Shown: piece after piece, positions 7,900 through 23,044 of the stretch
How the letters are laid out: each line of letters opens with the position of its first letter
Position numbering within the stretch: the stretch's first letter is position 1
Source of the DNA: Ruminococcus sp. UBA6407
GTDB lineage: Bacteria > Bacillota > Clostridia > Oscillospirales > Ruminococcaceae
Reading direction: 5' to 3'
Assembly (NCBI GenBank): GCA_002438605.1
Contig: DJPR01000042.1
Location: forward strand, 1 to 36,711
DNA: 36,711 nucleotides
Position numbers and translations under genes: made by a program
The notes under the pieces: model-generated
What the model was told of the DNA's origin: nothing
Databases searched by the model: none
What the model saw: only the letters and a program-made list of their open reading frames with translations

Positions 7900-8502
7900 A
7901 TGAAGTATTCTTTTAGTACACGAATGTTGACTTGTTTTTATCACAGTGCTGTTAAAAGCGAATTAAAAAAACGTAAATTTCCAAAATGCACAGCACAAAA
8001 AATTTTAAAGGAACATAAAGCAATTGTTTCCCGTGCCAAAAGTATAGGAAAGTCAAAATTACTAAGTGCTTACATAATGGGAATTTATTTTATAGCCTTG
8101 AATCGCAGTACCGGGAAATCTGCTGAAGAAAACTACGAAATATTCAGGGACGGATTATGTTCTTCAAGATTGTTTCACAAAATAATCGGAGATGCAGATA
8201 GTTATCTTAACCCAAAGAAAATGACGGAACGACTGAAATGGTCGCAAGAGAGTCATAAGCGTAAGTATGAAAATGACTGGGTTGTTGATATTCTGCAGAG
8301 CAATGGCGAATATGAGCTTGGCTATGATTATCATGAATGTGGTGTATGCAAACTGTGTAAAGATGAGGGCTGCCCCGAACTTGCACCTTTTTTATGCCGA
8401 ATGGATTATGTTCTTGCCGACATTATGAATATGAAATTGGTGAGAACCAAAACAATTGCAGAGGGTTCAGAACTTTGTGATTTCAGATACAGCAGGAAGT
8501 AA
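7900..8502 (+). CDS. L-2-amino-thiazoline-4-carboxylic acid hydrolase family protein
   Basis: A 200-residue soluble protein. The C-terminal half carries the conserved block of this family (PF14196): YDYHECGVCKLCKDEGC, then a CRMDYVLAD segment, and KLVRTKTIAEGSELCDFRY near the end. The named founding activity hydrolyses L-ATC on the way to cysteine, but most members are uncharacterised and the several conserved Cys residues could also bind metal. The N-terminal ~90 residues are helical and basic. The ATG follows TTGGAGG by 10 nt. It stands alone between diverged direct repeats, which suggests it arrived or was duplicated as a cassette. Family match is strong, substrate unknown. Confidence 0.85.
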   Translation: MKYSFSTRMLTCFYHSAVKSELKKRKFPKCTAQKILKEHKAIVSRAKSIGKSKLLSAYIMGIYFIALNRSTGKSAEENYEIFRDGLCSSRLFHKIIGDADSYLNPKKMTERLKWSQESHKRKYENDWVVDILQSNGEYELGYDYHECGVCKLCKDEGCPELAPFLCRMDYVLADIMNMKLVRTKTIAEGSELCDFRYSRK

Positions 8503-8557: not shown

Positions 8558-8586
8558 TTGACAATTTCTGGGAGTTATGATATAAT
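8558..8586 (+). promoter_or_regulatory. Consensus promoter of the biosynthetic operon
   Basis: TTGACA (8558-8563) and TATAAT (8581-8586) with 17 bp between: perfect sigma-A consensus. It is the only strong promoter found between the 7900 gene and the 9114 operon. Confidence 0.75.
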
Positions 8587-8617: not shown

Positions 8618-8832
8618 TGCAGCATTATGCTTTTGCATGATGCTGTATTTTAAGCCAATAAGTTAGCTTATACTAACTAGATGCAAAAATATATTTATGA
8701 CGGGAAATCAGCAGTTTTATGAAGTACAGATTTTTTGACATATTTTGTGCGGCATGCCTTAACCTGTCATAACAAGCGTTATGCAAATGCATGACGCTAT
8801 ATCAAAGCAGGCAAGTTAGCTACAACTAACTT
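8618..8832 (+). ncRNA. Tandem duplicated two-hairpin RNA element in the leader
   Basis: Copy 1: a 13-bp stem, 8618-8630 with 8635-8647 (core GCATTATGC-TTTT-GCATGATGC, two G-U pairs), then AGTTAG-CTTATA-CTAACT (8661-8678). Copy 2: GCGTTATGC-AAAT-GCATGACGC (8776-8797), then AAGTTAG-CTACAA-CTAACTT (8813-8832). Between copies an A-U pair becomes G-C, the internal G-U pair is kept and the loops vary, which supports selection on RNA pairing. In copy 2, GCAGG (8807-8811) can pair with CCTGC (8847-8851) to enclose the second hairpin. I do not recognise a known riboswitch class. Confidence 0.5.
8697..8761. repeat. 65-bp repeat, copy 1 (family B right half)
   Basis: The segment from ATGACGGGAAATCAGCAG to the GTGCGGCATGCCTTA end is repeated at 8965-9031 with about ten differences. 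Its end is a family B arm in inverse orientation. Confidence 0.65.
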
Positions 8833-8857
8833 ATTAGCCGTACTCCCCTGCATTTCA

Positions 8858-9036
8858 GGCAACACTGCATAAAGCTTGTGCGGCAGAAACGTAGATATAT
8901 TTTTGTCAGATTGCATAGAACTTTTGAAAGCATACTGTCATATGGCGAGAAGGTTATGTGTAATATGACTGGAAATCAGCAGCTTTATGAAGTACAAAGT
9001 CTTTTGACGTGTTTTTTGTGGTATTGCTTTAAGGAT
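8858..9036. repeat. Long family B element, MITE-like
   Basis: A left arm CAGGCAACACTGCATAAAGC (8858-8877) and a right arm ending TTTTTTGTGGTATTGCTTT (about 9012-9030) are inverted copies of the family B terminus, about 175 bp apart. No transposase frame lies inside. This is the layout of a miniature inverted-repeat element; no clear target-site duplication was found. Confidence 0.5.
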
Positions 9037-9113
9037 ATGCAGTAATCGGGGATATGAAAGGACAGCACCTTACATGGCTTGTTGGGTGAACTATTGAATG
9101 AAAGGAAAGTTAC

Positions 9114-10136
9114 ATGGTGAAGTATGGATTAAAAATTGTCGGTGCAGGTTATTCTGTTCCGAAAAGAAAGGTATCGACCGAAGAACTTGAAACTATGATG
9201 GAGTTTGAAAAGTTCGGGATAAGAAAAGGAATGTCAAAGCTTTTAAGCGGGGTTAGTGAAAGAGGATTTGCAGAGGATAATGAGGATTCATCGGATTATG
9301 CCGTAAGAGCAAGCAAAATGGCTCTTGAATCCGCCAATCTCAAACCCGAAGATATAGACCTGCTTATTTTCTGCTCTATTACATCTGATTTTCTTGAGCC
9401 TGCAACTGCAATGAAAATTCGTGAGGACCTTGGGTGCAGCAACGCAAACTGCTACGACATCAAAAATGCCTGCAATGCTTTTCTGACGGGTATGGAAATC
9501 GCAAATATGTATATTGAAACAGGAAGAGCCAAGAACGTGCTGCTTTGTTCAGGTGAAATTCTTAGCCGTTATCTTAAACTGCACTATGATACTCCTGAAG
9601 AAATTGCAAATGCAAATGCAACGTTTTCTCTTGGTGACGCAGGCGGAGCACTCATTGTTTCAGCAAAGGAAATCGTTGATGAAAAGGATAAAATGAAAAG
9701 CATATTCCAAACATCATCTGAATTCTGGAATGACGGTATTCTCTGGGGCGGCGGAACTCACTATGCTCATAATCCTGAAATGGCTTACTTCCAGAACGAA
9801 ACAAGACAAATGATTAAAACCAACTTTGCTAAGGCATCTGCATTTTATGCAAAGGCTTTAAAGGACTTTGATATTAAGATTGATGATGTCGCTTTATTCA
9901 TTCCGCACCAGATAACAAAGTATCTTACACTGAAAACCTGCGAAATACTCGGACTCCCTGTTGAACGTACTGTTGACCTTATCGGAAATCATGGAAATAT
10001 CGGCTGTTCATCAATCCCCCTTGCTATTGCACAAAACCTTGAAAACGGAAAACTGAAGCTTGGAAGCGGTCAGCAGCTGGTAATATTCGGATTCGGCAAC
10101 GGAGTAAGTATGGCACTTATCTCACTGTATCTTTAA
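9114..10136 (+). CDS. Beta-ketoacyl-ACP synthase III (FabH-like), biosynthetic
   Basis: A 340-residue thiolase-fold condensing enzyme. The KAS III catalytic set is complete: Cys120 in DIKNACNAF, His265 in FIPHQ and Asn295 in GNHGNIGCSS. The closing FGFGNGVSMALI motif is also present. KAS III enzymes take an acyl group from CoA or ACP onto the Cys and condense it with a malonyl-type or other carrier-bound extender. Being the first gene of an operon with carrier proteins and ligases, it is more likely a pathway-specific synthase than the housekeeping FabH, as no other fab gene is near. GAAAGGAAAG lies 7 nt before the ATG. Substrates are unknown. Confidence 0.9.
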   Translation: MVKYGLKIVGAGYSVPKRKVSTEELETMMEFEKFGIRKGMSKLLSGVSERGFAEDNEDSSDYAVRASKMALESANLKPEDIDLLIFCSITSDFLEPATAMKIREDLGCSNANCYDIKNACNAFLTGMEIANMYIETGRAKNVLLCSGEILSRYLKLHYDTPEEIANANATFSLGDAGGALIVSAKEIVDEKDKMKSIFQTSSEFWNDGILWGGGTHYAHNPEMAYFQNETRQMIKTNFAKASAFYAKALKDFDIKIDDVALFIPHQITKYLTLKTCEILGLPVERTVDLIGNHGNIGCSSIPLAIAQNLENGKLKLGSGQQLVIFGFGNGVSMALISLYL

Positions 10137-10149
10137 TTAGGAGGTATGT

Positions 10150-11961
10150 ATGATAAAGTTAGTTACGGAAAATGATATTATTAAACTGATAAAGGGAATG
10201 TTCCCCGATATTGAAGAAGTACCCGCAACTATTTCATTTACACAAAGCGGCTTGCTTACTTCATTTGACCTTGTAAATCTCATTTTTGAGCTTGAATCAG
10301 AATTCGGTTTGGAATTTGACCTTGAGGAGCTTGACCTCAAGCTTTTTGACTCTCCGATTATGATTGCAGATACCATTAATAACATGAATGGCATAAATAA
10401 GATGACATTAAGAAAGCTTTTTGATGATATTTGCTCTCGTGATATGTCAAAGGACGCTCTTACATTTGATGATACAACATATACATACAAGGAAATTTCA
10501 GACAAGGTAAAAGGTCTTGCGGCAGGCTTTATTGAAAAAGGAATAAATAAAGGTACTCATACAGTTATTATACTGGATAACTGCATTGAATACATTCTTT
10601 CATACTTTGCACTGTTTTATATAGGTGCTGTACCAATTCCTATAAATACAAGATGGAATCCGTCAGAAGCTGTAACTGTTATTAAAGACAGTGAAGCTGA
10701 ATATTTTATTGCCCGTGAACGCTCAGGAAAGCTTAAATTCTCTGACATAAAAGAAAAATTATCAGCTGATGGCTACAGTATAAAAAAAGTGATTTATTGT
10801 GATGCGAATGATGAGGGCATCTCTGAATTTGATTCCTTATGCTCAACCGAATTTCAGGAACTTCCCGACAATATTGCTCCCGAAGATGTTGCAATGATTT
10901 CTTATACATCAGGCACGACAGGAACACCAAAGGGCGTAATGCTCCGCCATGTTGATATAGCCAAAATTTCTCTCTATACTCAGCAGGTATGGACAGATTC
11001 AGATGACGAATCGTTCTCAATTGCCCCTCTTTATTCAGCACAGGGATTTCTCAGTCTGCTTATCAATTTTTCTATCGGTTCACGCTTTAAGATGATATCA
11101 AGCTTTAATACAAATGATATTCTTAAAGAAATCTCAAAGAAAAATGAAACCATTTTCCACACTCAGCCAACTATGTGGACTATGCTGCTTAACAGCAGAA
11201 TCATTAACTTTGCGGATTTCAGCGGACTTAAAAAGATTGTAGTTTCAGGCTCACTTTGCAGTCCTGAGCTTGCACGCAGAATTGAGGAAAGAATACACTG
11301 CCATTTGCTTAATGCGTACGGACTTATAGAAGGCACAAGTGTTGTTACAATGACACGCTATGACGACCCCGAAGATGTGCGTCTTAATACTGTAGGACGT
11401 CCGATTCCCGGTGTGGAGATAAAAATTGTGGACGAAGAAAGAAATCCTGTTGCTCATGGTGAAATCGGCGAGCTTGCAATCAGAGGCTATGTAATGGCAG
11501 GCTATTACAAGAATGAAGAAAAAACAAATGAAATAATGGATAAGGACGGCTGGCTTTATACGGGCGACCTCGCTAAATATTACGATAAGGAAAATATAAG
11601 CATAGTCGGACGCTGCAAGGATATGGTAATAAGAGGCGGATACAACGTATATCCGAGTGATATTGAGGAAATAATCTTACGCATTCCGGAGGTTCAGACA
11701 GCAGCAGTTGTCGGCAGACCTCATGACGTGCTTGGTGAGGAGCTTGTTGCATTCGTTGTACTGAGAGCCGGTGAGGAAATTAAGAAAAGTGACATAAACC
11801 GCTACATTTTCCAAAATCTTGCGAACTACAAGCTGCCAGACCAGATATATCTTATCAGCGATATGCCTGCAATTCTGGCAGGAAAGATTGATAAAAAGGT
11901 TTTAAGGGACTGGGCAGTCAACGGAATCCCTCAAGACAAGCAAATGATGTTTTCTGAATAA
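10150..11961 (+). CDS. Carrier-domain / adenylate-forming acyl ligase fusion
   Basis: A 603-residue didomain protein. Residues about 1-80 are an acyl-carrier-like domain with Ser38 in GLLTSFDLV as the probable phosphopantetheine site; the usual Asp before Ser is Thr. Residues about 85-590 are an AMP-forming ligase: P-loop YTSGTTGTPKG (252-262), NAYGLIEGT (388-396), TGD (471-473), Arg488, and C-terminal Lys579 in LAGKIDKK. Such ligases activate a carboxylic acid as adenylate and pass it to CoA or a carrier. The fused carrier may be the acceptor. The ATG follows TTAGGAGG by 6 nt, and the gene starts 13 nt after its upstream neighbour. The acid activated cannot be told from the sequence. Confidence 0.9.
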   Translation: MIKLVTENDIIKLIKGMFPDIEEVPATISFTQSGLLTSFDLVNLIFELESEFGLEFDLEELDLKLFDSPIMIADTINNMNGINKMTLRKLFDDICSRDMSKDALTFDDTTYTYKEISDKVKGLAAGFIEKGINKGTHTVIILDNCIEYILSYFALFYIGAVPIPINTRWNPSEAVTVIKDSEAEYFIARERSGKLKFSDIKEKLSADGYSIKKVIYCDANDEGISEFDSLCSTEFQELPDNIAPEDVAMISYTSGTTGTPKGVMLRHVDIAKISLYTQQVWTDSDDESFSIAPLYSAQGFLSLLINFSIGSRFKMISSFNTNDILKEISKKNETIFHTQPTMWTMLLNSRIINFADFSGLKKIVVSGSLCSPELARRIEERIHCHLLNAYGLIEGTSVVTMTRYDDPEDVRLNTVGRPIPGVEIKIVDEERNPVAHGEIGELAIRGYVMAGYYKNEEKTNEIMDKDGWLYTGDLAKYYDKENISIVGRCKDMVIRGGYNVYPSDIEEIILRIPEVQTAAVVGRPHDVLGEELVAFVVLRAGEEIKKSDINRYIFQNLANYKLPDQIYLISDMPAILAGKIDKKVLRDWAVNGIPQDKQMMFSE

Positions 11962-11973
11962 AGGAGATTAAAA

Positions 11974-12201
11974 ATGGATATAAAAGAAACGCTTATAGCT
12001 TTTCTTTCCGAACGCTATGGCTGGTCGGAAAAGGAAATACTGGAGGCAAAGAGCTTTGAAGATCTGGGGCTTGACTCCCTGAGCCTGTACTCGCTTGTTA
12101 CCGACTGTGAAGAAAAATTCAAAATTAAATTTGACACAGATGACATGACTGAAATTGATTCGCCTGAAAAATTTATAAAATATGTTATCGAGAGAGTTTA
12201 A
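11974..12201 (+). CDS. Acyl/aminoacyl carrier protein 1
   Basis: A 75-residue carrier protein with the canonical phosphopantetheine motif LGLDSLSLYSL (Ser35), acidic helix 2 and 3, and normal family length. AAAGGAG sits 9 nt before the ATG. It begins 12 nt after the ligase fusion and ends one base before the next gene. It is one of three carrier domains in the operon. Confidence 0.93.
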   Translation: MDIKETLIAFLSERYGWSEKEILEAKSFEDLGLDSLSLYSLVTDCEEKFKIKFDTDDMTEIDSPEKFIKYVIERV

Positions 12202-12202
12202 T

Positions 12203-13168
12203 ATGATTTTACCTGATGTAAATAAAAAAATTGATGAGCTTTACTTTGACGGTGCACTTGCACAAAGAGCCATTTCTGTTGAAATTGAGCCGATTGATAA
12301 TAAAACAGTTATAACTGCATGGCAGTGCAATATGGCAAGCATGAAAACAACAGATTTAAAGCTGCCGACAGTATTAAGAATGGTTCTTGAGGACGGTACG
12401 GTAACAGAAGCCGATTTAATGGAAAATTTCAAAGGCTCTCAAGGCATACCGTGTTCGCAGAAATATCTTGACAGAATATTGAAAAAACAGCTTATTGATA
12501 TTGACTTTGGTGAGGACGATACCGTTTTGCATAATGAACTTATGTTTCATTGCAGACACATATTTGAACTTGTTGCCGCTTCAATAACATTTTATCGGTT
12601 TTGCGGTTCTGATATCAAAAAGAAAAACACACTTTTTGATTTTACCAAAGCCTTTCAAGCGGAAAACGGACTTATTGTTACCGATGAATACGAAATCAAT
12701 GAAGAAAAAACAGTAACCAGGGAAAGCTTTATATTTGCTCCCGGTGATATATCTATGCAGAAAAACGGAAAAATTGCTGCTGTTAAAAAAATGGCTGTTA
12801 AAGCTGAAACAGTTTTCAGCAATGGTGAAAAGCTTGACTTTTCTGATGAAATACATGATATTGAGGGCAGCAATAATGTAATTATGAGCGTAATGAAGCT
12901 GTTTTCAGGTCTTTGGAAGGGAATTGGGAGAAAAATCGGCATAAGACGAAATTTTTACTTCACAAATCTTCTTCCCTCCTCATTATATGGTGTATTTATA
13001 CAGGCTGTCGCACTTATGGTTTTCAAGCATAACTACAATTATTTTCAGCATTCTCTTGCAGGCTTGCAGAGAAGTGATGAAAGACCGCTGTGTGTCGGTA
13101 TGGTTCTTAATATGGACGAACTTAAAAAGTTTTATCCCGAATTCAGAGAGGATGATCTCCTTGGCTGA
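12203..13168 (+). CDS. Uncharacterised protein of the biosynthetic operon
   Basis: A 321-residue protein that I do not recognise. No signal peptide and no clear membrane segment. Residues about 55-105 (VLEDGTVTEADLMENF to LIDIDF) read like a small winged-helix unit, a fold also used in peptide- or carrier-recognition domains; this is only a pattern impression. Scattered His and Cys (FHCRHIF, 115-121) and a hydrophobic stretch near 275-285 (GVFIQAVALMVF) are the other landmarks. The ATG is one base after the stop of carrier protein 1, and its 3' end overlaps the next gene by 17 nt, so translational coupling on both sides ties it to the pathway. Confidence 0.75.
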   Translation: MILPDVNKKIDELYFDGALAQRAISVEIEPIDNKTVITAWQCNMASMKTTDLKLPTVLRMVLEDGTVTEADLMENFKGSQGIPCSQKYLDRILKKQLIDIDFGEDDTVLHNELMFHCRHIFELVAASITFYRFCGSDIKKKNTLFDFTKAFQAENGLIVTDEYEINEEKTVTRESFIFAPGDISMQKNGKIAAVKKMAVKAETVFSNGEKLDFSDEIHDIEGSNNVIMSVMKLFSGLWKGIGRKIGIRRNFYFTNLLPSSLYGVFIQAVALMVFKHNYNYFQHSLAGLQRSDERPLCVGMVLNMDELKKFYPEFREDDLLG

Positions 13169-14051
13169 TGTTTATCTTAAGGATTTCGGCTATTTTAAAG
13201 GCAAATCCATGAAAATCAGTCAACTTGTATCTGAAAAGCATATACGGAATGATACAGAATACTTATATGCGGAGGGATATGAGGAAGCCGCTGTTGCAGA
13301 TGAACCGCCAATTGAATTTATTGAAAAAAACATTAATATTCCACATGAAAGTGAGTTGCTGATATATAACGTCACATTTCCAAGCAATACAATACACTGC
13401 ACAGAAAAGGGAGATGCAGAAGCAAATCTTTTTTATTCAGGGGAAAAGCTGATTACAGATAAGAAAAGAACTGATATGAGGTATATCGGCATATCTCAGC
13501 AGGGCTGTACAGGGCTTATGTCCGCTGTTGATATTGGTTCTGCAAGAATACTGCTGAAAAGGAACAGAAATGTAATTTGCATCAGCAATGACATTCTCCC
13601 GAAAGGTATTTATCATGATATGAAAAAGCAGAAAATGCTGCTGTCCGATACCGTATCGTATGTCGAGCTTTCAGCTGAACCTGCACCATACCGTCTGCTT
13701 AAAGCTGCTGATAAAAGTGTTGCGGCAGCCGATTTTTTCGGCATTGCCGCTGCAACTGAAGCTCTGATTGCTGAGCTTTGTGACGGATTTACCGTACCAA
13801 ACAAGCTTGAAAACATTATCTTTCCAAATCATTGGCTAAAGGTGTGGAGGTCGTTCCTTTTACGCAGCAAATATAAAAGCAGATTTACTGATTCCTCAAT
13901 AAAAACCTTAGCTCACGGACTTTCCGCAGACGGAATATGCAATCTGCTGCTTGCTGAAGAAAGAGGGTGCATAACATCGGGGGAAAAACAGGCTGTTATA
14001 TCCTATGGATATGGCGGACATCTCAGGGGACTTTTAATTGAAAAACAATAA
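13152..14051 (+). CDS. Degenerate KAS III homologue
   Basis: A 299-residue thiolase-fold protein related to KAS III but shorter. It keeps the active-site Cys119 in ISQQGCTGLMSAVD, a VICISND...LLSDT segment matching the FabH core, His227 in IIFPNHW where FabH has PHQ, and the closing ISYGYGGHLRG. The Asn that completes the triad is missing: AHGLSADG aligns with YGNTSAAS, placing Leu257 there. It may be an acyl-transfer or priming enzyme rather than a condensing one, or a partner of the 9114 enzyme. The start is ambiguous: ATG 13152 abuts GAGAGG, while TTG 13161 has better spacing (9 nt). It overlaps the preceding gene. Confidence 0.75.
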   Translation: MISLADVYLKDFGYFKGKSMKISQLVSEKHIRNDTEYLYAEGYEEAAVADEPPIEFIEKNINIPHESELLIYNVTFPSNTIHCTEKGDAEANLFYSGEKLITDKKRTDMRYIGISQQGCTGLMSAVDIGSARILLKRNRNVICISNDILPKGIYHDMKKQKMLLSDTVSYVELSAEPAPYRLLKAADKSVAAADFFGIAAATEALIAELCDGFTVPNKLENIIFPNHWLKVWRSFLLRSKYKSRFTDSSIKTLAHGLSADGICNLLLAEERGCITSGEKQAVISYGYGGHLRGLLIEKQ

Positions 14052-14093
14052 GGACAACACCGTCAGATACGCTTTGTTCTGTGCTGCCTTGAA
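14050..14093. repeat. Family B repeat inside the operon (decayed)
   Basis: AAGGACAACACCG at the left and TGTGCTGCCTTGAAAC at the right are diverged inverted arms with CTTTGTT between. It lies between the KAS III homologue and the ABC transporter genes and is the only sizeable gap (66 nt) in the operon. Confidence 0.55.
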
Positions 14094-14117
14094 ACATTGA
14101 AACAACAGGAGGAAAAA

Positions 14118-14813
14118 ATGATTGAATTTAAATTAGTCAATAAGATTTATCATATGGGTGATGAAACCATAAAGGCTGTTGACAATATAAGCTTTACAAT
14201 ACCCGATGAAACATTTACAGTTATTCTTGGGCCGTCAGGCTCAGGAAAGTCTACAACACTTAACCTGCTTGGCGGAATGGATACAGCTACATCAGGCAAA
14301 ATTCTGCTTGACGGTGAAGAAATAACAGGCTTGAATGAAAAACAGCTTGAAGAATACCGCCGCAGAAAAATCGGATTTGTATTTCAGTTCTATAATCTGA
14401 TACCTCAGCTTACGGCAAAGGAGAATGTTGCCATTACAGCAAAAATGATTGATAATGCACTTGATGTTGACGAGGTTATAGAGGGAGTCGGCTTGAAAAA
14501 AAGACGAAATCTTTTCCCATCAAATCTTTCAGGCGGCGAGCTTCAGCGTGTGGCAATTGCAAGAGCGTTGGTAAAGCGTCCGAGAATTCTTCTCTGTGAC
14601 GAACCGACAGGTGCTCTTGACAGCGAAACAGGCAAAAGAATACTTAAGCTGCTGAAAGAAACGGCTAAGGAGAATAAAATTTCCCTTATTGTTGTAACTC
14701 ATAATGCCAATCTTGAAAAAATTGCAGATCAGGTCATTCGCCTAAAGGACGGAAAAATTCAGAGCTGTTTAATGAACGAACATCCCATGTCAATTGATGA
14801 GGTGGAATGGTAA
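14118..14813 (+). CDS. ABC transporter ATP-binding protein (MacB/LolD type)
   Basis: A 231-residue ATPase of the family that works with FtsX/MacB permeases. Walker A GPSGSGKST (38-46), Q-loop Gln90 in FVFQFYNL, signature LSGGE (137-141), Walker B ILLCDEP (D161, E162) and switch His195 are all intact. AGGAGG precedes the ATG at 14118 by 6 nt; a longer frame from a TTG at 14097 would include that ribosome site and is rejected. Its stop shares one base with the ATG of the permease, so the two are made together. In this cluster the pair probably exports the product or gives self-protection (inference). Confidence 0.93.
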   Translation: MIEFKLVNKIYHMGDETIKAVDNISFTIPDETFTVILGPSGSGKSTTLNLLGGMDTATSGKILLDGEEITGLNEKQLEEYRRRKIGFVFQFYNLIPQLTAKENVAITAKMIDNALDVDEVIEGVGLKKRRNLFPSNLSGGELQRVAIARALVKRPRILLCDEPTGALDSETGKRILKLLKETAKENKISLIVVTHNANLEKIADQVIRLKDGKIQSCLMNEHPMSIDEVEW

Positions 14814-17089
14814 TGGAGTTTTTATTCAAAAAAATGCTGCGTGATATTCGCAGCAACTGGACACAGTTTTTCTCAGTTTTTCTTATGGCAACCATTTCTG
14901 TGCTTATATTTTCGGGCATGGCTTCTGTCTGGACAGGTCTGAACAGTCAGGTTTCCGCATTTGCCGATGATTCAAATATGGCTGATATATGGGTCAAGGC
15001 AGTAGGCATTACAGATGATGACATTAACAAAATAAATGCTGTAAACGGTGTTGATGAGGCTGTTCGCTGTATGAGCCTTTCGCTTTCAGAATCAAACGGA
15101 AACGGCGAAATTCAGGTGAATACCGTTGACGGCACTGACATCAGCAAGCCTTGCATCATAAGCGGCATAGAATATGATAAGGATTCAGCCGAGGGTATTT
15201 GGCTGGACGCTGAATATGCAAAAGAGCATGATCTTAAAGTCGGTGATAAAATATCTCTTGACGGTCTTATCGGAACCTGCGAATTTGAAATCATGGGTAC
15301 GGTAATGACTCCCGAATATATTTACTATACAGGAAATATTACAGAAACTGTGCCGAATTATAAAAAATACGGCTATGCTTTTGTTGGAAATACGGCAATG
15401 CTTAATCTTACTCCGCAGATAGTGTGGTCACAGGTAAAGCTTATAACCTCCGAGGATATTTCAGACAGCGAATTTGAAAATATATTCGGCGAACGCTTTA
15501 TTTGTGCACAGGATCGTGATACATATACTCAATTTGCCCGTTCCTCACAGGAAAGCAGTCAGATGCAGAAAATGGCAACTCTCTTTTCCGCTGTTTTTAT
15601 CCTGCTTTCACTCATGACCATGTATACATCAATGGTTCGATTGGTAAACCGACAAAAAACGCATATCGGAACACTTAAAGCTCTCGGCGTATCAAGCAGC
15701 TCAATTCGTCTGCACTATGCCTGCTACGGACTTGTCATTCCGATAGTCGGCGGACTTCTCGGACTTGTGATCGGCAGATTTACTGTTGCAAAGGCACTTA
15801 TGAAGGTAAAGCAAACCACTATATACCTGCCCGAATGGAAGCTCATTCATTCCAAAGCCAGCTTTTTGCTTATAGGATTTATTGCATTATGCTGTGTATT
15901 TGCGTCAGTATGGGCTGCACAAAGATGTTTAAAGGGTATGCCTGTTGAAATTATGAGAAGCACAGACAATTCAAATGAGAAAAATTTAAAGGCATCTGAA
16001 AACGGCTCTGAATCCCGAATGTCATATGAATGGAAATGGACCTTCCGTAATATAAAGCAGAACAAAATCAGGTTCATAATGGGCATAGTCGGCGTTATGG
16101 GCGGAATGGTTCTTATGATTGCAGGTCTTGGTGTAAAGGACGCCATTAACGGTTCAAACGATTTTGTATTTGAAAAGCAGTTCAAATATAACACAAAGGT
16201 TCTTCTCAGTACAGCAGGTGAGGTGTTTGATACTGATGATGCAGGTCAATGGTTACAGGAATCAAATATCGAATTAAAGGCGGATAATCAGGAAACAAAG
16301 CAAACTGTCATTACTGTTTGTGATGACGGAGAAATGATGCTTTTCTATGATGACGATGATAATGAAATCAGTCTGCCTCAGGACGGTGCATTAATATCAA
16401 GAAAGCTTGCTGATGACCTTGAAATAAAAAGCGGCGATACTGTAAATATAAGATTATTCGGTTCGCAGGATTGGTTCAGCGTTACAATTAAGGAAACCTC
16501 AAAAACCTTGTCGCCTCAGTCAATATTCATGTCAAAGGAAGCTTATGAATCACTTAATATGACATTTACCCCCACAACTCTGCTTTCTGCTTCTGATAAT
16601 TCCGAGTCATTCCTTGAATCCGACAAGGTTAAGAGCGTTATTTCAAAAGAACAGCAGATTGAAAATACTGAAACAGTTGCAGACAGTGTTATGTCTGTTG
16701 TTAAGCTTCTTATCATGGCGTCTGTTCTTTTAAGCGTTGTTATTTTGTATAATCTCGGCATTCTCAACTATGTGGAAAGAATAAGGGATTATGCCACAAT
16801 GAAGGTTCTTGGATTTTATCATAAAGAAATCCGAAGTCTTGCTATAAGAGAATGCATACTTACTACTGCTATAGGCTGGATAATAGGCTTGCCGCTTGGT
16901 ATGCTGTTCCTGAAACTTTATGTAAAAATCATTTCATTTGACACATTTGAGTGGATAGCGTCAGTCAATGCTTCTACTCTTGCAATTGCATCAGTTGTAA
17001 TAATCGGCGTATCAATCGTTGTAAACCTTATACTCAGCAGCAAGGTGAGAAAAATTGTTATGGTGGAGGCACTTAAATCTGTTGAGTAG
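14813..17089 (+). CDS. ABC transporter permease with two FtsX domains
   Basis: A 758-residue membrane protein. Predicted membrane segments by hydrophobicity: about 18-40, 252-275, 305-330, 350-374, 420-445, 628-652, 683-705 and 722-745. Two large extracytoplasmic parts lie between them (about 41-250 and 446-625), the layout of eight-segment FtsX-like exporters that handle peptides or lipids in Gram-positives. The ATG at 14813 is chosen over ATG 14807 because AGGTGG stands 8 nt before it. It lacks any sign of a fused kinase or peptidase domain. Confidence 0.9.
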   Translation: MEFLFKKMLRDIRSNWTQFFSVFLMATISVLIFSGMASVWTGLNSQVSAFADDSNMADIWVKAVGITDDDINKINAVNGVDEAVRCMSLSLSESNGNGEIQVNTVDGTDISKPCIISGIEYDKDSAEGIWLDAEYAKEHDLKVGDKISLDGLIGTCEFEIMGTVMTPEYIYYTGNITETVPNYKKYGYAFVGNTAMLNLTPQIVWSQVKLITSEDISDSEFENIFGERFICAQDRDTYTQFARSSQESSQMQKMATLFSAVFILLSLMTMYTSMVRLVNRQKTHIGTLKALGVSSSSIRLHYACYGLVIPIVGGLLGLVIGRFTVAKALMKVKQTTIYLPEWKLIHSKASFLLIGFIALCCVFASVWAAQRCLKGMPVEIMRSTDNSNEKNLKASENGSESRMSYEWKWTFRNIKQNKIRFIMGIVGVMGGMVLMIAGLGVKDAINGSNDFVFEKQFKYNTKVLLSTAGEVFDTDDAGQWLQESNIELKADNQETKQTVITVCDDGEMMLFYDDDDNEISLPQDGALISRKLADDLEIKSGDTVNIRLFGSQDWFSVTIKETSKTLSPQSIFMSKEAYESLNMTFTPTTLLSASDNSESFLESDKVKSVISKEQQIENTETVADSVMSVVKLLIMASVLLSVVILYNLGILNYVERIRDYATMKVLGFYHKEIRSLAIRECILTTAIGWIIGLPLGMLFLKLYVKIISFDTFEWIASVNASTLAIASVVIIGVSIVVNLILSSKVRKIVMVEALKSVE

Positions 17090-17112
17090 AAACGAATGGA
17101 GTTGAGTTTAAT

Positions 17113-18558
17113 TTGAAATCCGATGAAAAAAGAACATTTTATAACCTGCTGAAAAGAAATTCAGAACAGTTTGCCGATATAAATGCACTTATATCAGGTG
17201 AATATAAAATCAATTATTCCGAGCTTTTCAAAAAGACCTCGGAGCTTGCCGCAGTTTATCAGAAAAAAGGTTTTTCAGGCAAAAAGATAGACCTTTCTCC
17301 TACAATGTCATGCGAATGGATTATTGTATTTTTTGCATTGGTGATGTCGGGAGCAATCGTTGTTCTCCATGAACCGTTTTTAAATGTTTCCGAATACATT
17401 GACGATATTTATATTAAATCAGACGCAAATGAGCTTTGCTTCAATGAAACTGCAAATGGTCATACACTTGTACCTCAGGACGAAAATGCAGTATCGCTTA
17501 TAATTTTTACTTCCGGTACATCGGGCAGACATAAGGGTGTTATGCTTTCACAAAGAAATATTATAAGCAGTGCAATGATAGGCGTTGAAAAGGTGGGCAA
17601 AGGACTTTTATATCCCTGCGACAGAAGCATACCTGTTCTTCCGCTGTTTCATATGTTTGGAATTACAGCGTCAATAATTGCACCTATGTCGCTGGGAATG
17701 ACACTTTATATTATTGACGAGATGAAATATGTAATAAAATCACTTTCATCCATAAAGCCAAAGATATTATTTGCTGTTCCAATGATTATAAAAACCATGC
17801 TTAACAGAGCGTTGCTGCTCGAAAAGAAAGGTCTTTCACCGCAAAAAATAAAGGATGAATTTTTCGGCGGACTTACTGCTGTCGTAAGCGGAGGTGCTGC
17901 CTTACATCCTGAGCTTATAGAGCAGTATGAAAGGTTTGGAATACAGCTCCTTAACGGATACGGCATAACGGAATGCTCGCCTATTGTTACGGCATCATCT
18001 TACAATGATTTTGAAAAGGGGGCAGTCGGCAGAGTTAACGACCTGTGCTGTGCTGAAGTAAAAATTATAGACGGAACGGTGCATGTAAGCGGTGATATTG
18101 TTATGCAGGGATATTATAATGATAAATCCGAACCGTTTAAATATATTGAGGGGAAAAAGTGGTTTGATACATTGGATAACGGAACTATAGACAGCAATGG
18201 AAACCTTTTTATACAGGGCAGACAATCAAATCTTATTATTCTTGATGACGGAAACAATACTGCTCCTGAGGAGCTTGAGGTAATGTTTGAAAAGTATGAT
18301 ATTATAGGCGATATAATGGTTTACGAAGCTCATGCAGAACTCGGAAATCTTATTGCGGCATCTATATATCCGAATCAGGAATTGGTCTCCGCAATGACTG
18401 AAACGGAAGTTTATGCTGAAATTGAGAAAGCAGTAAATGAAGTAAATAGCAAACTTCCCGTATACAAAAGAATAAAAGCATGGAAGATACGCAAAAGTGA
18501 CTTTCTGCGTACAAGTCTTAAAAAAATTATAAGAACAGGAGTGAACATTGATGAATGA
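17113..18558 (+). CDS. Adenylate-forming acyl ligase 2
   Basis: A 481-residue AMP-forming ligase, slightly short for the family. Motifs: P-loop FTSGTSGRHKG (132-142), NGYGITECSP (281-290), a diverged A7 motif WFDTLDNG with Asp355 in place of the usual T-G-D context, Arg370 in IQGRQSN, and the C-terminal catalytic Lys in FLRTSLKKIIR. It probably loads an acid onto the carrier protein encoded next, whose start overlaps it. The start codon is a TTG 11 nt after GGAG. The shortened C-terminal region and altered A7 motif set it apart from the first ligase, suggesting a different acid. Confidence 0.9.
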   Translation: MKSDEKRTFYNLLKRNSEQFADINALISGEYKINYSELFKKTSELAAVYQKKGFSGKKIDLSPTMSCEWIIVFFALVMSGAIVVLHEPFLNVSEYIDDIYIKSDANELCFNETANGHTLVPQDENAVSLIIFTSGTSGRHKGVMLSQRNIISSAMIGVEKVGKGLLYPCDRSIPVLPLFHMFGITASIIAPMSLGMTLYIIDEMKYVIKSLSSIKPKILFAVPMIIKTMLNRALLLEKKGLSPQKIKDEFFGGLTAVVSGGAALHPELIEQYERFGIQLLNGYGITECSPIVTASSYNDFEKGAVGRVNDLCCAEVKIIDGTVHVSGDIVMQGYYNDKSEPFKYIEGKKWFDTLDNGTIDSNGNLFIQGRQSNLIILDDGNNTAPEELEVMFEKYDIIGDIMVYEAHAELGNLIAASIYPNQELVSAMTETEVYAEIEKAVNEVNSKLPVYKRIKAWKIRKSDFLRTSLKKIIRTGVNIDE

Positions 18559-18766
18559 AATGATTACTTTTATCTCCGATTACCTCGGAGTAGATAAATC
18601 CGAATTAAATGAAAATACTGACCTTCAAAATGATTTGGGTCTTTCGTCATTTGATGTCATGGATTTAAGCTGTGAGCTTGAAGAAGAATTCAACATTAAA
18701 ATAGATACGGAAAAGCTGGCTGAGGTGCATAACATCGGCAGTATGGCAAAGCTTTTGCAGAATTGA
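18551..18766 (+). CDS. Acyl/aminoacyl carrier protein 2
   Basis: A 71-residue carrier protein with Ser33 in DLGLSSFDVMDL as the phosphopantetheine site; Ser replaces the usual Asp before it. ATG 18551 follows AGGAG by 9 nt and overlaps the end of ligase 2 by 8 nt. The downstream ATG of the synthetase-like gene is 9 nt after its stop. Ligase 2, this carrier and the synthetase-like gene thus form one translationally linked set. Confidence 0.9.
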   Translation: MNEMITFISDYLGVDKSELNENTDLQNDLGLSSFDVMDLSCELEEEFNIKIDTEKLAEVHNIGSMAKLLQN

Positions 18767-18774
18767 GGCGGATT

Positions 18775-19953
18775 ATGAAAACAATAGAATATTCAACATC
18801 GGAAATTAATGCATCTGATGTAAACGTATTTACAGATATGCTTGCTTATGTTTCCGAATACATCTTTAAAATAACAAGAGAAAACGGCAGAGTCTTATTG
18901 GATATTGAGGATACAAAAGAGGACGAGGTGCTTGATAAAATCGCACAGCTCAGAAAAACAATGGAGCTTGACGAGGTGAAAAAGGGACGGGAAGTAACAA
19001 CAAAAGTTCTTGTCGATAAACGCAGCAATGTTCCGCTTAATACGGATAATATTTTCAGCAAGCTTGTTGAAAGCGGCAGTGTAGTAAAAATGACTGACGG
19101 TGCTTATGCTTATACGGGACTTTTTCTTCAGGTTTATCGTTATTTCTGCCGAAAGATAGATGAATTCGGCAAAAAGCACTTCAATGGAATTCAGGAATTT
19201 GAGGAGTCTGTTCTTTATCCTGTAAAAGAGTATGAAACAGGCCATTACTTTGAGAGCTTTCCGCATCACATTATGTTTCAGACCACAATGAAAAGTGATG
19301 CAGAGCTTTTAGAACGTTTTTCCAAAAACGGCACAAATGACAGCACGATTTTTTCAAATGACAATATGAAGCGTCCCGAAAATGTAGTGCGTCATGCAGC
19401 TTGCGTACCGATTTACCCTATGCTCAAGGACGCATATATCCCTGCTGATTCACCAAAATATTACCTTATTTCCGGAAAATGCTTTCGCAATGAGGGAGCT
19501 AATGTATATGAGCTTGCACGCCTTAATGAGTTCTACATGAAGGAATTTGTGTGTATCGGTACTCTTGAGCAAACCCTTGATATGATTAAATCTGCGAGAG
19601 CATTATGGGAAGAATGGATTGATACATTTAATCTGAATTGTACCATTGAAACCGCAAATGACTCTTTCTTTGCAAGCAATTACAAGAAGCTTAAAATATT
19701 CCAGATTCTTGGAGATTCCAAACAGGAATTTCGTGTATACATTCCTGACGGTGATTTCTTCTGTGCTGTAAGCTCATCAAATGTACACAGAACGCATTTT
19801 ACCAAAACCTATAATATCCATAATGACAATTCATTCTGTCAAAGCTCCTGCTTTGCATTCGGTGTTGAAAGACTATCCTATGCACTTCTTTCACAAAAGG
19901 GTGTGGATATAGATAAATGGGATGAGGCAACAAGAAAGGAAATTTTCGGATAA
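18775..19953 (+). CDS. Class II aaRS-like amino acid:[carrier protein] ligase candidate
   Basis: A 392-residue protein with a class II aminoacyl-tRNA synthetase core: motif 2 around KCFRNEG (236-241) and motif 3 in FGVERLSYAL (362-371). Overall it follows the atypical seryl-tRNA-synthetase-like family whose studied members charge a carrier protein instead of tRNA. That family binds zinc through two Cys and one Glu; matching residues here are Cys210 (RHAAC), Glu257 (MKEF) and Cys359 (SSCFAFG). The N-terminal ~160 residues lack the long coiled-coil of SerRS and hold a different mixed region. GAGG lies 6 nt before the ATG. The adjacent carrier protein is the natural acceptor. Amino acid choice unknown. 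Confidence 0.85.
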   Translation: MKTIEYSTSEINASDVNVFTDMLAYVSEYIFKITRENGRVLLDIEDTKEDEVLDKIAQLRKTMELDEVKKGREVTTKVLVDKRSNVPLNTDNIFSKLVESGSVVKMTDGAYAYTGLFLQVYRYFCRKIDEFGKKHFNGIQEFEESVLYPVKEYETGHYFESFPHHIMFQTTMKSDAELLERFSKNGTNDSTIFSNDNMKRPENVVRHAACVPIYPMLKDAYIPADSPKYYLISGKCFRNEGANVYELARLNEFYMKEFVCIGTLEQTLDMIKSARALWEEWIDTFNLNCTIETANDSFFASNYKKLKIFQILGDSKQEFRVYIPDGDFFCAVSSSNVHRTHFTKTYNIHNDNSFCQSSCFAFGVERLSYALLSQKGVDIDKWDEATRKEIFG

Positions 19954-19958
19954 CTCAT

Positions 19959-20825
19959 ATGAACTGTAAATATGTTGTAACAGGAACGGGGAGTCTTGCT
20001 GTAAAAATAGCCGAATATCTTTCAGAAAACGGAATAGTTCCATTGGTTTATGAAAAACCGTATACTTCACATTCTACTGTTCAAAGTCTTTGTGAAGCTA
20101 AAAGCATAGCTTATGAAAGGTTTACTTCGCAGGAGCTTACAGAACGTCTGCTAAGTATGCTTAGTGAACAGCCTGTCAAGGTGATAAGTGCTATAAATAC
20201 ATATATTTTTCCAAAGGAAGTTGTTGAAAACCCAAACTTCAGCGGAATTAATTATCATAATGCACTTTTACCGCATCATAGAGGAATGAATGCAGAGGCA
20301 TGGTCGATTTTTTCCATGGACAAAACAACAGGAATAACATGGCACGAAATAGCAGCATCTGTAGATAAAGGCGGAATAATAGCTCAAAGGGAAATACCGC
20401 TTGATGATAAAATAACATCATTCAAACTGCTGAACATTCAGCTTGAAGCTGCTTATAAAGCTTTTACGGAATTTGCTCCCGATTTTATTAACGGCAAACT
20501 CAAAATAACTCCTCAGGATAAGCAACCTTCTGAATTTCACTATATAAAAGATGTACCAAATAACGGCATTATAAATTCAGATTGGAGCATGGATAAAATA
20601 TCAGCATTTTTGCGTGCTATGGATTACGGAATGTTTTATACTCTCGGAAAGCCTGTTTTAGAATATAACGGCAAAAGGTACAGCTGCGGAAGATACAGAA
20701 TTTCCGAAACATCAGATGTAGTTTCAGATGAAGTGATTTTAATGGATAATAACACCGTTACCATAAAGAAGCAAGGCAGTAATATTATTGTAAAGCTCCT
20801 AAACATCAAGGAGATCAGCAAATAA
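19959..20825 (+). CDS. Formyltransferase, Fmt/GART-like, biosynthetic
   Basis: A 288-residue folate-dependent formyltransferase. The catalytic trio is present: Asn98 and His100 in INYHNALLP and Asp136 in ASVDKGGII. The HHRGMNAEAWSI segment is also typical. The C-terminal ~85 residues are a shortened OB-like domain, smaller than in methionyl-tRNA formyltransferase (about 315 residues in all). Placed right after the amino-acid ligase candidate, it may formylate the amino group of an aminoacyl-carrier protein, by analogy with formylation of Met-tRNA and formylation domains in peptide synthetases (inference). Last gene of the operon; its ribosome site is weak, so coupling from the upstream gene 5 nt away is likely. 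Confidence 0.87.
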   Translation: MNCKYVVTGTGSLAVKIAEYLSENGIVPLVYEKPYTSHSTVQSLCEAKSIAYERFTSQELTERLLSMLSEQPVKVISAINTYIFPKEVVENPNFSGINYHNALLPHHRGMNAEAWSIFSMDKTTGITWHEIAASVDKGGIIAQREIPLDDKITSFKLLNIQLEAAYKAFTEFAPDFINGKLKITPQDKQPSEFHYIKDVPNNGIINSDWSMDKISAFLRAMDYGMFYTLGKPVLEYNGKRYSCGRYRISETSDVVSDEVILMDNNTVTIKKQGSNIIVKLLNIKEISK

Positions 20826-20958: not shown

Positions 20959-22242
20959 TTAAATATGTTTTGTGCGGTAATTTTCAAATGATGTTCTGAT
21001 GTCATTATACATATAAAGCGAACCAACGGCTAAAATCGGCAGATGCGTCCTTACTGCATAATCATATGCAGCTTCTGCGGCAGAATTTATGCTGTCATAA
21101 TAAGACGCCTCAACGCCGTATCCACTGAAAACCTCTGCCAGCACTTTACTGCTCAATGCTCTGGGATTATTCGGCGTAACTGTAAACACACGCTGAGAAA
21201 CTCCGCTCAGCTGTCCTGCAAGATTTTTGTAGTCCTTATCAGCCATTACTCCCATAAGAACGATTACCTTGCTGTTGAAGTAACTTTTTATGCTGTTTAC
21301 TGTATATTCCATTCCATGAGGATTGTGTGAACCGTCAAATATAATAAGCGGCTTTCTGCACAATATTTCAAATCTGCCATTCCATACGGCATTGGAAAGT
21401 CCGCTGTAAACGGCTTCATTGCTGATATTCAGACCGTATTTTCGCAGAATGTCAATCGCAGTAAGGACTGCGGCACAATTCTGTGGCTGATAAAGTCCGA
21501 GCAATGAAAGTCTGATATTTTTGTAGCTGCCGAAATCAAGTAATGTACCTTCCAATGAAAAGTCCTTTACTGCAAGCTGACTGTAATCTGCATGAAAAAG
21601 CTCCGAATTCATTTTTTCAGCCTTTTCCATTATGACCTTATCGGCATCTGCGTCCGTTCCTGCAAAAAGCAGAGGACGGTCTTTTTTTATTATGCCTGCT
21701 TTATGAACTGCAATTTCCGCCGTAGTTTTGCCGAGAAATGAGGAATGGTCAACTGCCACATTTGTAATTACCGAAAGCAGAGGAGCTTCAATTACATTGG
21801 TGGAGTCTGCATCTCCGCCCATTCCGCACTCAATTACTGCAATATCACATTTACTGCGATAAAAGTATTCAAATGCGGCGGCAGTAAGAATTTCAAATTC
21901 TGTCGGAGGGTCGTCCATACTTTCAGCAAGCGGATAAATAAAGCCTATTATTTCAGCAAACAGCAGGTCGGGGATTTCCCTGCTGTTTATCTGTATGCTT
22001 TCGTTTATACGGGTAATGTAAGGCGATGCAAAAAGTCCTGTTTTACAGTCCTGAGCCTGCAAAATCGAGGTCAGCATACGGCATACCGAGCCTTTTCCGT
22101 TTGTTCCCGTTACATGAATGACTTTGGTTTTTCTTTGCGGATTATCCATAAGCTCCAGAAGTTCAATAATTCTTGAAAGTCCCAGACGGCTTCCCCTTGA
22201 AAGTGTATTTTTCAGATAATCAACAGCATCTTCATAATTCAT
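20959..22242 (-). CDS. folC: Folylpolyglutamate synthase / dihydrofolate synthase
   Basis: A 427-residue Mur-ligase-type enzyme that joins glutamate to dihydropteroate or tetrahydrofolate with ATP. The P-loop HVTGTNGKGSV is near residue 40, followed by the GMGGDADSTNVIE omega-loop region, the KAGIIKKDRPLLFAG motif (the folylpolyglutamate-type Lys), and FDGSHNPHGMEYT in the C-terminal domain. ATG 22242 is chosen because MNYEDAV is the normal family start; an in-frame ATG at 22254 lies inside folT. The start base is shared with the folT stop codon, so folT and folC form one riboswitch-controlled operon. Confidence 0.95.
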   Translation of the reverse strand: MNYEDAVDYLKNTLSRGSRLGLSRIIELLELMDNPQRKTKVIHVTGTNGKGSVCRMLTSILQAQDCKTGLFASPYITRINESIQINSREIPDLLFAEIIGFIYPLAESMDDPPTEFEILTAAAFEYFYRSKCDIAVIECGMGGDADSTNVIEAPLLSVITNVAVDHSSFLGKTTAEIAVHKAGIIKKDRPLLFAGTDADADKVIMEKAEKMNSELFHADYSQLAVKDFSLEGTLLDFGSYKNIRLSLLGLYQPQNCAAVLTAIDILRKYGLNISNEAVYSGLSNAVWNGRFEILCRKPLIIFDGSHNPHGMEYTVNSIKSYFNSKVIVLMGVMADKDYKNLAGQLSGVSQRVFTVTPNNPRALSSKVLAEVFSGYGVEASYYDSINSAAEAAYDYAVRTHLPILAVGSLYMYNDIRTSFENYRTKHI

Positions 22243-22805
22243 TATCTTCTGCATATTCTGTTATATTGTGCGGCAAAAGCCTTGTTGTTCATAATCAGGC
22301 TTATTATGATAAATTCTATAGTACCTATCGCAAGGTAAAGCGGAACTCTGAGGAGCAGTACCTTCAGCGGCGAACCGTAGTAAACATGAAGTCCGTATGA
22401 CTTTACTATCATTGAGCCTATTATATGTGCGGCCGCAACTGCAAAGGCAATGTTCAGGGTTTTGTTCTTTTTGAAAAGGTACATTGAAAAAAGTCCTGAG
22501 AAAAATCCGACACAGCCTGCACCAAGCGTTATTATCGGACTTATCGTATAGCCGACCATAAGACAGCCGATAATATCTGCCCCGACTCCAACAGCAAGAC
22601 CTATCAGCGGTCCGAACATAATTCCTGCCATAAGAATGGTCAGGTTTTCAAGGCTTATTCTGATTGCCCCTACAGTAAATGACAGATATTTTCCGAGAAC
22701 TATACTTGCCGCAATAAAAAGTGCAGACAGTATAAGAACTCTTGTGTTTCCGAAAAATCGGACACTTCCTATTGCCTGTGATTTGGTTTCCTTGCTTAAT
22801 AACAT
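22242..22805 (-). CDS. folT: ECF transporter folate-specific S component
   Basis: A 187-residue membrane protein with six hydrophobic segments, the substrate-binding subunit of an energy-coupling-factor importer. The first helix has the AxxxA-type motif ALFIAASIVLGKY, used to dock on the shared EcfT. The segment SLENLTILMAGIMFGPLIG and a TLGAG loop fit the FolT group. ATG 22805 follows AAGGAGG by 7 nt. The THF riboswitch upstream and folC downstream confirm folate as substrate. The EcfA/EcfT partners are not in the window. Confidence 0.92.
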   Translation of the reverse strand: MLLSKETKSQAIGSVRFFGNTRVLILSALFIAASIVLGKYLSFTVGAIRISLENLTILMAGIMFGPLIGLAVGVGADIIGCLMVGYTISPIITLGAGCVGFFSGLFSMYLFKKNKTLNIAFAVAAAHIIGSMIVKSYGLHVYYGSPLKVLLLRVPLYLAIGTIEFIIISLIMNNKAFAAQYNRICRR

Positions 22806-22813
22806 AAAAAAAT

Positions 22814-22851
22814 ACCTCCTTTTCCTCACCCATACGGCAAGAAAAGAAGGT
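22814..22851 (-). promoter_or_regulatory. Ribosome-site-sequestering hairpin ahead of folT
   Basis: On the minus strand ACCTTCTTTTC (22841-22851) can pair with GGAAAAGGAGGT (22814-22825), burying the folT Shine-Dalgarno sequence. No T-run terminator follows the aptamer, so control of translation start is the likely output of the riboswitch. Confidence 0.6.
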
Positions 22852-22885
22852 GCGTGGACTGCACTATCTGTATTTGATGCCCTAT

Positions 22886-22985
22886 GAAGCGGGATGCAAA
22901 ACACGAACCGCAAATCCATAGGATTTTTCGTTTGACCGACAACTCCCCGTTCAGCCAACACTTAACGCCCGTATTTTTACTCTTC
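22886..22985 (-). promoter_or_regulatory. Tetrahydrofolate (THF) riboswitch
   Basis: On the minus strand the 100-nt segment begins GAAGAGTA, contains GGGCGTTAAGTGTTGGCTGA and CGGGGAGTTGTCGG, and ends TTTTGCATCCCGCTTC. The order and conserved words match the folT/folE THF aptamer described from clostridia (CGTTAAGTGT near the start, TTGCATCC near the end, closing stem GAAG/CTTC). It sits about 80 nt upstream of folT. Confidence 0.87.
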
Positions 22986-23044
22986 AAACGCTGACTTTTG
23001 ATTTTAAGAAACATTATACAATGTTTTCCTAAGTCAACAGCTAT

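Follow-up and report, generated by a model that had tools for sequence, protein, structure and literature searches.

Among described systems, those closest to the locus reported here are the amino acid:[carrier protein] ligases typified by Bll0957 of Bradyrhizobium, the PqsA-D quinolone pathway, and the initiation of linear gramicidin, in which a formyltransferase domain acts on Val-PCP, a valine bound to a peptidyl carrier protein. A 2022 review states that the biological role of amino-acid loading on carriers by ligases of the Bll0957 kind remains unknown (PMC9437257), and ligation to a cell-surface sugar was predicted, in a 2010 paper, for SerRS-like enzymes from other gene neighbourhoods (PMC2922099). 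We describe here an eleven-gene operon at positions 9114-20825 of a 36,711-nucleotide stretch of DNA from Ruminococcus sp. UBA6407 (contig DJPR01000042.1; the window hereafter), in which a relative of these ligases is encoded together with carriers, other acid-activating enzymes and an exporter. The operon is real, intact, co-inherited and rare, and its combination of genes is undescribed as far as our searches reach. With a probability of roughly 0.6, we read it as a dedicated pathway that would use stand-alone carrier proteins to assemble a small molecule for export.

Organization of the operon

The genes are given below in the order in which they lie, together with the evidence for each; KAS III stands for 3-ketoacyl-acyl carrier protein synthase III and ABC for ATP-binding cassette. 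Family scans were run with Pfam on ten of the operon proteins, the permease being scanned with NCBIfam only.

9114..10136, + strand: KAS III-like condensing enzyme (PF08541/PF08545; C120-H265-N295; alignments)
10150..11961, + strand: N-terminal carrier domain (Ser38) fused to an AMP-forming acyl ligase (AMP-binding, 262.4 bits; motifs)
11974..12201, + strand: stand-alone carrier protein 2 (DSL, Ser35; PP-binding, 42.6 bits)
12203..13168, + strand: core protein of 321 amino acids (aa) outside described families (invariant Cys84, Cys117, His119, Glu122; 32 relatives)
13152..14051, + strand: KAS III-like candidate acyltransferase, C119-H255-D260 as in ChlB3
14097..14813, + strand: ABC transporter ATPase (PF00005, 123.3 bits; alternative ATG start at 14118 possible)
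14807..17089, + strand: FtsX/LolCE-like ABC permease, 760 aa (weak NCBIfam matches; orthologues in L021, L034, L063)
17113..18558, + strand: second AMP-forming ligase (AMP-binding, 168.6 bits; motif A3 kept)
18548..18766, + strand: stand-alone carrier protein 3 (Ser34; PP-binding, 49.6 bits)
18763..19953, + strand: class II synthetase-like relative of amino acid:carrier-protein ligases (PRK07080, 138.2 bits; PDB 4h2w/3mey; C214, E244, C363)
19959..20825, + strand: formyltransferase, N98-H100-D136 (PF00551, Formyl_trans_N, 62.4 bits)

Each gene is intact with a single terminal stop, and the starts of the 321-aa protein (12203) and of the second KAS III homologue (13152) were revised from the lengths of their relatives. 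The intergenic distances along the operon (13, 12, -20, -17, 45, -7, 23, -11, -4 and 5 nt) agree with the original prediction, made from the sequence alone, of same-strand genes that mostly overlap or lie within 25 nt of each other, as nine of the ten neighbouring pairs do. The gene families that it named (three carriers, two AMP-forming ligases, an intact KAS III, an amino-acid ligase candidate and a formyltransferase) were likewise recovered with Pfam and NCBIfam, except that one of the three carriers, the N-terminal domain of the first ligase, has no Pfam match and was recognized by its alignment with the other carriers and by Ser38. Of the predicted MacB/FtsX-type ABC pair, the ATPase matches PF00005, and the permease matches ADOP, LolCE and FtsX in NCBIfam weakly, all far under cut-off.

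No non-ribosomal peptide synthetase (NRPS) condensation domain, thioesterase or phosphopantetheinyl transferase (PPTase) was detected by Pfam and NCBIfam in the operon proteins and 15 other proteins of the window. Their absence had been remarked upon before; for the PPTase it leaves no gap, since the genome encodes one elsewhere (PF01648, 178 aa, contig C32, away from the operon). The G+C content of the operon (38.6%) is close to that of its flanks (39.0% and 37.9%), and a recent foreign origin is therefore not supported.

Conservation, rarity and upstream sites

Relatives of the amino-acid ligase of at least 43% identity came from 11 distinct genomes (G288 and G691, which gave the same contig, are counted as one), and 7 of the 11 also carry the 321-aa protein. 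Loci with both genes are referred to as type A, so that the 321-aa protein is present in all seven by definition. In G1023, a member of the Lachnospiraceae, the family of KH1T2, ten of the eleven genes occur in the order of the window at 37-75% identity (L034), only the second KAS III homologue being absent. Ten genes were likewise found in order in G286, a Faecousia metagenome-assembled genome (MAG), spread over contigs L063 and L002. The operon there opens with a PPTase, followed on L063 by the KAS III (77% identity to the window), the ligase fusion (73%), a carrier (69%), the 321-aa protein (58%), the second KAS III homologue (44%), the ATPase (85%), the permease (67%) and, up to the contig end, the second ligase (52%); on L002 the tail of a second ligase is followed by a carrier and then by the amino-acid ligase (72%). 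In G674 (L021) ten genes are rearranged, the amino-acid ligase being shifted to the front. The original prediction had put forward co-conservation of the genes, as opposed to scattering of their homologues, as the point to check; the genes proved to be co-conserved and not scattered, ten of the eleven being kept in each of these three genomes.

Shorter or altered versions occur in G691/G288 (L038/L004), in G949 (L064 and L037, on separate contigs) and in G291 (L027, L028), and in all of these the carrier before the first ligase is a separate gene. The KAS III, the carrier with the first ligase, and the carrier that follows are common to all seven type A genomes. Six of them have the ATPase-permease pair, with other ABC exporters in G291, and four have the second ligase, with other AMP-forming ligases in G949 and G291. 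L038, L037/L064 and L063/L002 are partly cut off by contig ends, and the counts given for accessory genes are accordingly lower bounds.

At E <= 0.001 the ligase was met in one of 40 near relatives and in one of 247 genomes of the family, in both cases the genome of the window itself. A draw from the class gave it in 6 of 391 genomes, of which only this genome and G674 exceeded 40% identity (the other four, 27-28%). At E <= 1e-30 it was present in 3 of 349 genomes of the family of G674 and in 3 of 397 of that of KH1T2. Of the 391 class genomes, two have the 321-aa protein, and these are the ones that carry the ligase at more than 40% identity (the genomes listed indicate that both searches covered the same draw); the protein never turned up in a genome lacking the ligase. 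At 100% identity, a ligase sequence matching that of the window was located on 264 contigs in the protein collection (P0001); the system is thus widely sampled, though rare across species.

A second type of cluster, in G287, G289, G290 and G1147 (L030, L029, L026, L036), has the ligase without the 321-aa protein. The ligase adjoins a PP-loop protein (for the L030 member, the WbuX amidotransferase model gives 143 bits against a cut-off of 203), and in three of the four loci the formyltransferase is adjacent to the ligase. KAS III relatives lie nearby (in G1147 as a partial match only), some of these loci having a thioesterase, a PPTase or an EntE-like aryl-AMP ligase as well. This suggests a wider family of ligase-based pathways beyond type A. 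The ligase of L037 also adjoins a WbuX-like PP-loop protein, and the G289 locus (L005/L029) lies in a MAG labelled Alistipes senegalensis, reflecting either a binning error or a transfer into another phylum. Distant ligase relatives (26-29% identity) lie near other biosynthetic genes in L024, where these encode a KAS III and an ABC-2 transporter, and in L025, where they encode ABC proteins together with proteins like butirosin BtrH and a PPTase.

Three features were located 5' of the first operon gene:

8558..8586, + strand: sigma-70 promoter match, TTGACA-17-TATAAT, with TG before the -10 box (12/12)
8661..8678, no strand: palindrome AGTTAG-N6-CTAACT, copy 1, candidate regulator site (one of two in this genome)
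8814..8831, no strand: palindrome AGTTAG-N6-CTAACT, copy 2, candidate regulator site (one of two in this genome)

Promoter-like sites are about as frequent in the region as in shuffled sequences (41 against 38.9), and the match at 8558-8586, the only one to exceed 10/12, would give a leader of about 520 nt. Both copies of the palindrome in this genome thus sit between the promoter match and the first gene, in a layout shared with L063 of G286, where a promoter-like sequence is followed by two palindromes. G674 has three, one of them 117 nt 5' of its operon. The reversed motif, used as a control, did not occur in this genome and, among seven other genomes, occurred once, in G1147; of 2000 first-order Markov sequences of 700 nt, one contained the palindrome. 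Other genomes have the palindrome near unrelated genes as well, some of these sites being beside ABC transporters, so that it is not confined to this pathway. Expression is probably under the control of a regulator binding these sites in the long leader, and we infer that it is a repressor.

The leader was also considered as a known riboswitch or T-box and rejected as such, no Rfam match reaching the gathering score and five weaker matches being judged chance. Its folding stability (z = -3.5) may stem partly from a dispersed intergenic repeat at 8847-9041 (positions 258-452 of the leader query), since the leader query gave at least 46 matches in the genome, itself included, the other 45 all falling within this part; 40 of 166 candidates were scored, making this count a lower bound.

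Beyond the operon, a gene of the L-2-amino-thiazoline-4-carboxylate hydrolase family (PF14196) lies at 7900-8502 on the same strand, 5' of the promoter. On the other side, an ECF (energy-coupling factor) transporter S component and, after it, a Mur-ligase/FolC-like gene (20959-22961, - strand) converge with the formyltransferase, and a tetrahydrofolate riboswitch (22885-22986, - strand, 87.1 bits) overlaps the start of the S component. The gene at 7900-8502 and the flanking folC were rejected as operon members, no relative of either being found in the other loci compared. A formyltransferase requires a folate cofactor; because folC was not found beside the operon in those loci, this neighbourhood is probably a coincidence.

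Active sites of the operon enzymes

The amino-acid ligase has a class II synthetase core (PF00587, 34.0 bits against a cut-off of 29.3), and its residues 110-391 align with amino acid:[carrier protein] ligases (PDB 4h2w, E 1.9e-19; also 3mey). Its zinc ligands, predicted to be C214, E244 and C363 from the known structures and placed by the 4h2w alignment, were compared in the window and the best 120 of 291 matches, about 73 of which are 96-100% identical to the window; Cys214 and Glu244 were kept in 121 of 121 sequences, and Cys363 in all 120 that were readable. Judged from these alignments, the enzyme is a distant relative of the amino acid:carrier-protein ligases that has kept their zinc ligands and forms a separate, longer branch, and a chemistry like that of Bll0957 would be expected of it.

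The catalytic C120, H265 and N295 are all present in the KAS III of the window, which scored below the NCBIfam FabH cut-offs (176.2 bits against 249, and 155.2 against 292.1). Among 11 sequences from 10 genomes (the window included, two being from G949), the Cys and Asn were kept throughout, and the His in four (window, L034, L021, L063); it is replaced by Thr in six sequences and by Ser in one (L038, L030, L029, L026, L037, L064, L027). The genomes that retain it are exactly the four with the second AMP-forming ligase.

At E <= 0.001, neither Pfam nor NCBIfam gave a match for the second KAS III homologue; its relatives (P0159; L021) match KAS III models, mostly under cut-offs. Its structure model has a predicted local distance difference test score (pLDDT) of 88.9 and the KAS III (thiolase) fold, matching 1032 PDB chains at E <= 0.001. 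It had been predicted to be a KAS III homologue without its Asn. The Asn is indeed missing, but the protein does not look simply degenerate: Cys119, His255 and Asp260 are invariant in seven of seven aligned sequences and also kept in L063, and the His-Asp spacing is that of the acyltransferase ChlB3 in a structural alignment of 12 rows, five of them true KAS III. The protein is thus a candidate ChlB3/CerJ-type acyltransferase.

The 321-aa protein had no Pfam or NCBIfam match at E <= 0.001 and no sequence relative in the PDB even at E 10; its structure model is confident, yet gave no convincing fold match. All 29 aligned sequences (25 of its 32 relatives, the window and three loci) have Cys84, Cys117, His119 and Glu122, which presumably form a catalytic or metal site. 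The protein is among the most conserved of the operon and may be a new enzyme.

In the formyltransferase, N98, H100 and D136, which we assume to be the catalytic residues, are present and kept in six of six aligned sequences. Its gene adjoins that of the ligase in five loci (window and L034 of type A; L030, L029 and L026 of the second type), an arrangement suggesting that the enzyme may cap a carrier-bound amino acid.

Proposed pathway and comparison with described systems

In the pathway that we propose, the PPTase of the genome would activate the three carriers in trans. The synthetase-like enzyme would adenylate an amino acid and load it on a carrier, where in this genome the formyltransferase could cap its amine, and the AMP-forming ligases would load one or two carboxylic acids onto the fused or adjacent carriers. 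The KAS III and the 321-aa protein might then join the acyl and aminoacyl units, with the ChlB3-like enzyme passing an acyl group from one carrier to another or to the product, and the ABC ATPase-permease pair would export what is made. That the operon is a dedicated exported carrier pathway without NRPS or polyketide synthase modules, as first proposed, is supported because the gene order is conserved in distant genomes, the upstream sites are shared, and the ligase and the 321-aa protein co-occur. More speculatively, and with odds well below even, the system could be a carrier-protein version of translation initiation, a carrier being charged instead of a tRNA and formyl-capped as Fmt caps initiator Met-tRNA, with the 321-aa protein and the KAS III joining an acyl chain; if so, it would stand for a new class of exported metabolites with an optional formyl cap.

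Several observations weigh against this pathway or parts of it. The ligase scores 138.2 bits on the NCBIfam equivalog PRK07080, whose cut-off is 357, and the PDB match begins only after its first 109 residues. The second KAS III homologue was found in at least three of seven type A genomes. The formyltransferase was also found in at least three (window, G1023, G291) and was not detected in the available stretches of the remaining four genomes, which include L021 and L022 of G674 and, in G286, L063 and L002 with the 10 kb after the L002 ligase. With each of these two genes in three of seven genomes, the product must vary; the formylated amino-acid/acyl hybrid originally predicted remains plausible for the window, but formylation appears as an add-on and not as part of the core. 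Upstream, the palindrome of L034 is present only with two mismatches, just past the -10 box, and it is absent upstream of the operon in L027. Finally, because the His is kept in only 4 of 11 KAS III sequences, decarboxylative condensation, likely for the enzyme of the window, is doubtful across the family.

This last point bears on what the KAS III does. It might act as an acyltransferase that forms an amide or ester from carrier-bound units, with no carbon-carbon bond, a possibility we hold at about one in three: 7 of 11 sequences have Thr or Ser in place of the His but keep Cys and Asn, and another KAS III-fold candidate acyltransferase is encoded in the same operon, but the window, L034, L063 and L021, all with the second ligase, keep Cys-His-Asn. 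A similar, slightly lower likelihood attaches to the formyltransferase acting on some other amine, such as that of the finished product. Among solved structures it is closest to amino-sugar formyltransferases and Fmt, with LgrA, the gramicidin protein, coming lower (34.9 bits); its closest NCBIfam models are ArnA, a formyltransferase and Fmt, and in L028 its gene sits away from the ligase. That the two genes are immediate neighbours in five loci, drawn from both cluster types, speaks for the carrier-bound amino acid.

That the amino acid is attached to a cell-surface lipid or sugar and not released, the FtsX/LolCE-like pair moving a lipidated product, appears unlikely. It would agree with the 2010 prediction for SerRS-like carrier ligases cited above and with LolCE being among the weak matches of the permease, but glycosidases and lipopolysaccharide genes were absent from the Pfam and NCBIfam matches of the operon proteins, and two acid ligases with three carriers would suit a metabolite better. 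The resemblance of component enzymes to FabH, FadD and ACP (acyl carrier protein) might recall a housekeeping acyl-carrier or fatty-acid locus, a reading made highly improbable by the confinement of the ligase to one genome among 40 relatives and 247 family genomes.

We thus retain a dedicated, exported carrier-protein pathway as the preferred reading. Literature searches on the pathway and on the ligase family, with subscription papers mostly outside them and no reference collection of biosynthetic gene clusters compared, returned no matching pathway, in line with the earlier statement that no characterised pathway has this set of genes.

The operon shares with linear gramicidin initiation a predicted carrier-bound amino acid and a formyltransferase, but it has a discrete synthetase-like ligase and no NRPS adenylation domain, and Pfam found no condensation domain. 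It resembles the PqsA-D pathway in combining an AMP-forming ligase with two KAS III-fold proteins, PqsBC being among the top structural rows; that pathway presumably has no counterpart to the carriers, amino-acid ligase, formyltransferase and exporter. Like ChlB3, the second KAS III homologue has a Cys-His-Asp triad, with the same His-Asp spacing, but it is 14-17% identical to ChlB3, CerJ, DpsC and NatS and about 30-45 residues shorter. With Bll0957 and its relatives (3mey, 4h2w), the ligase of the window has in common the class II core, the zinc-ligand positions and the adjoining carrier genes, but it differs from them in its long N-terminal part and in its setting, a compact, export-coupled operon of KAS III, ligase and exporter genes kept across distant Firmicutes, in which the role of amino-acid loading becomes directly testable.

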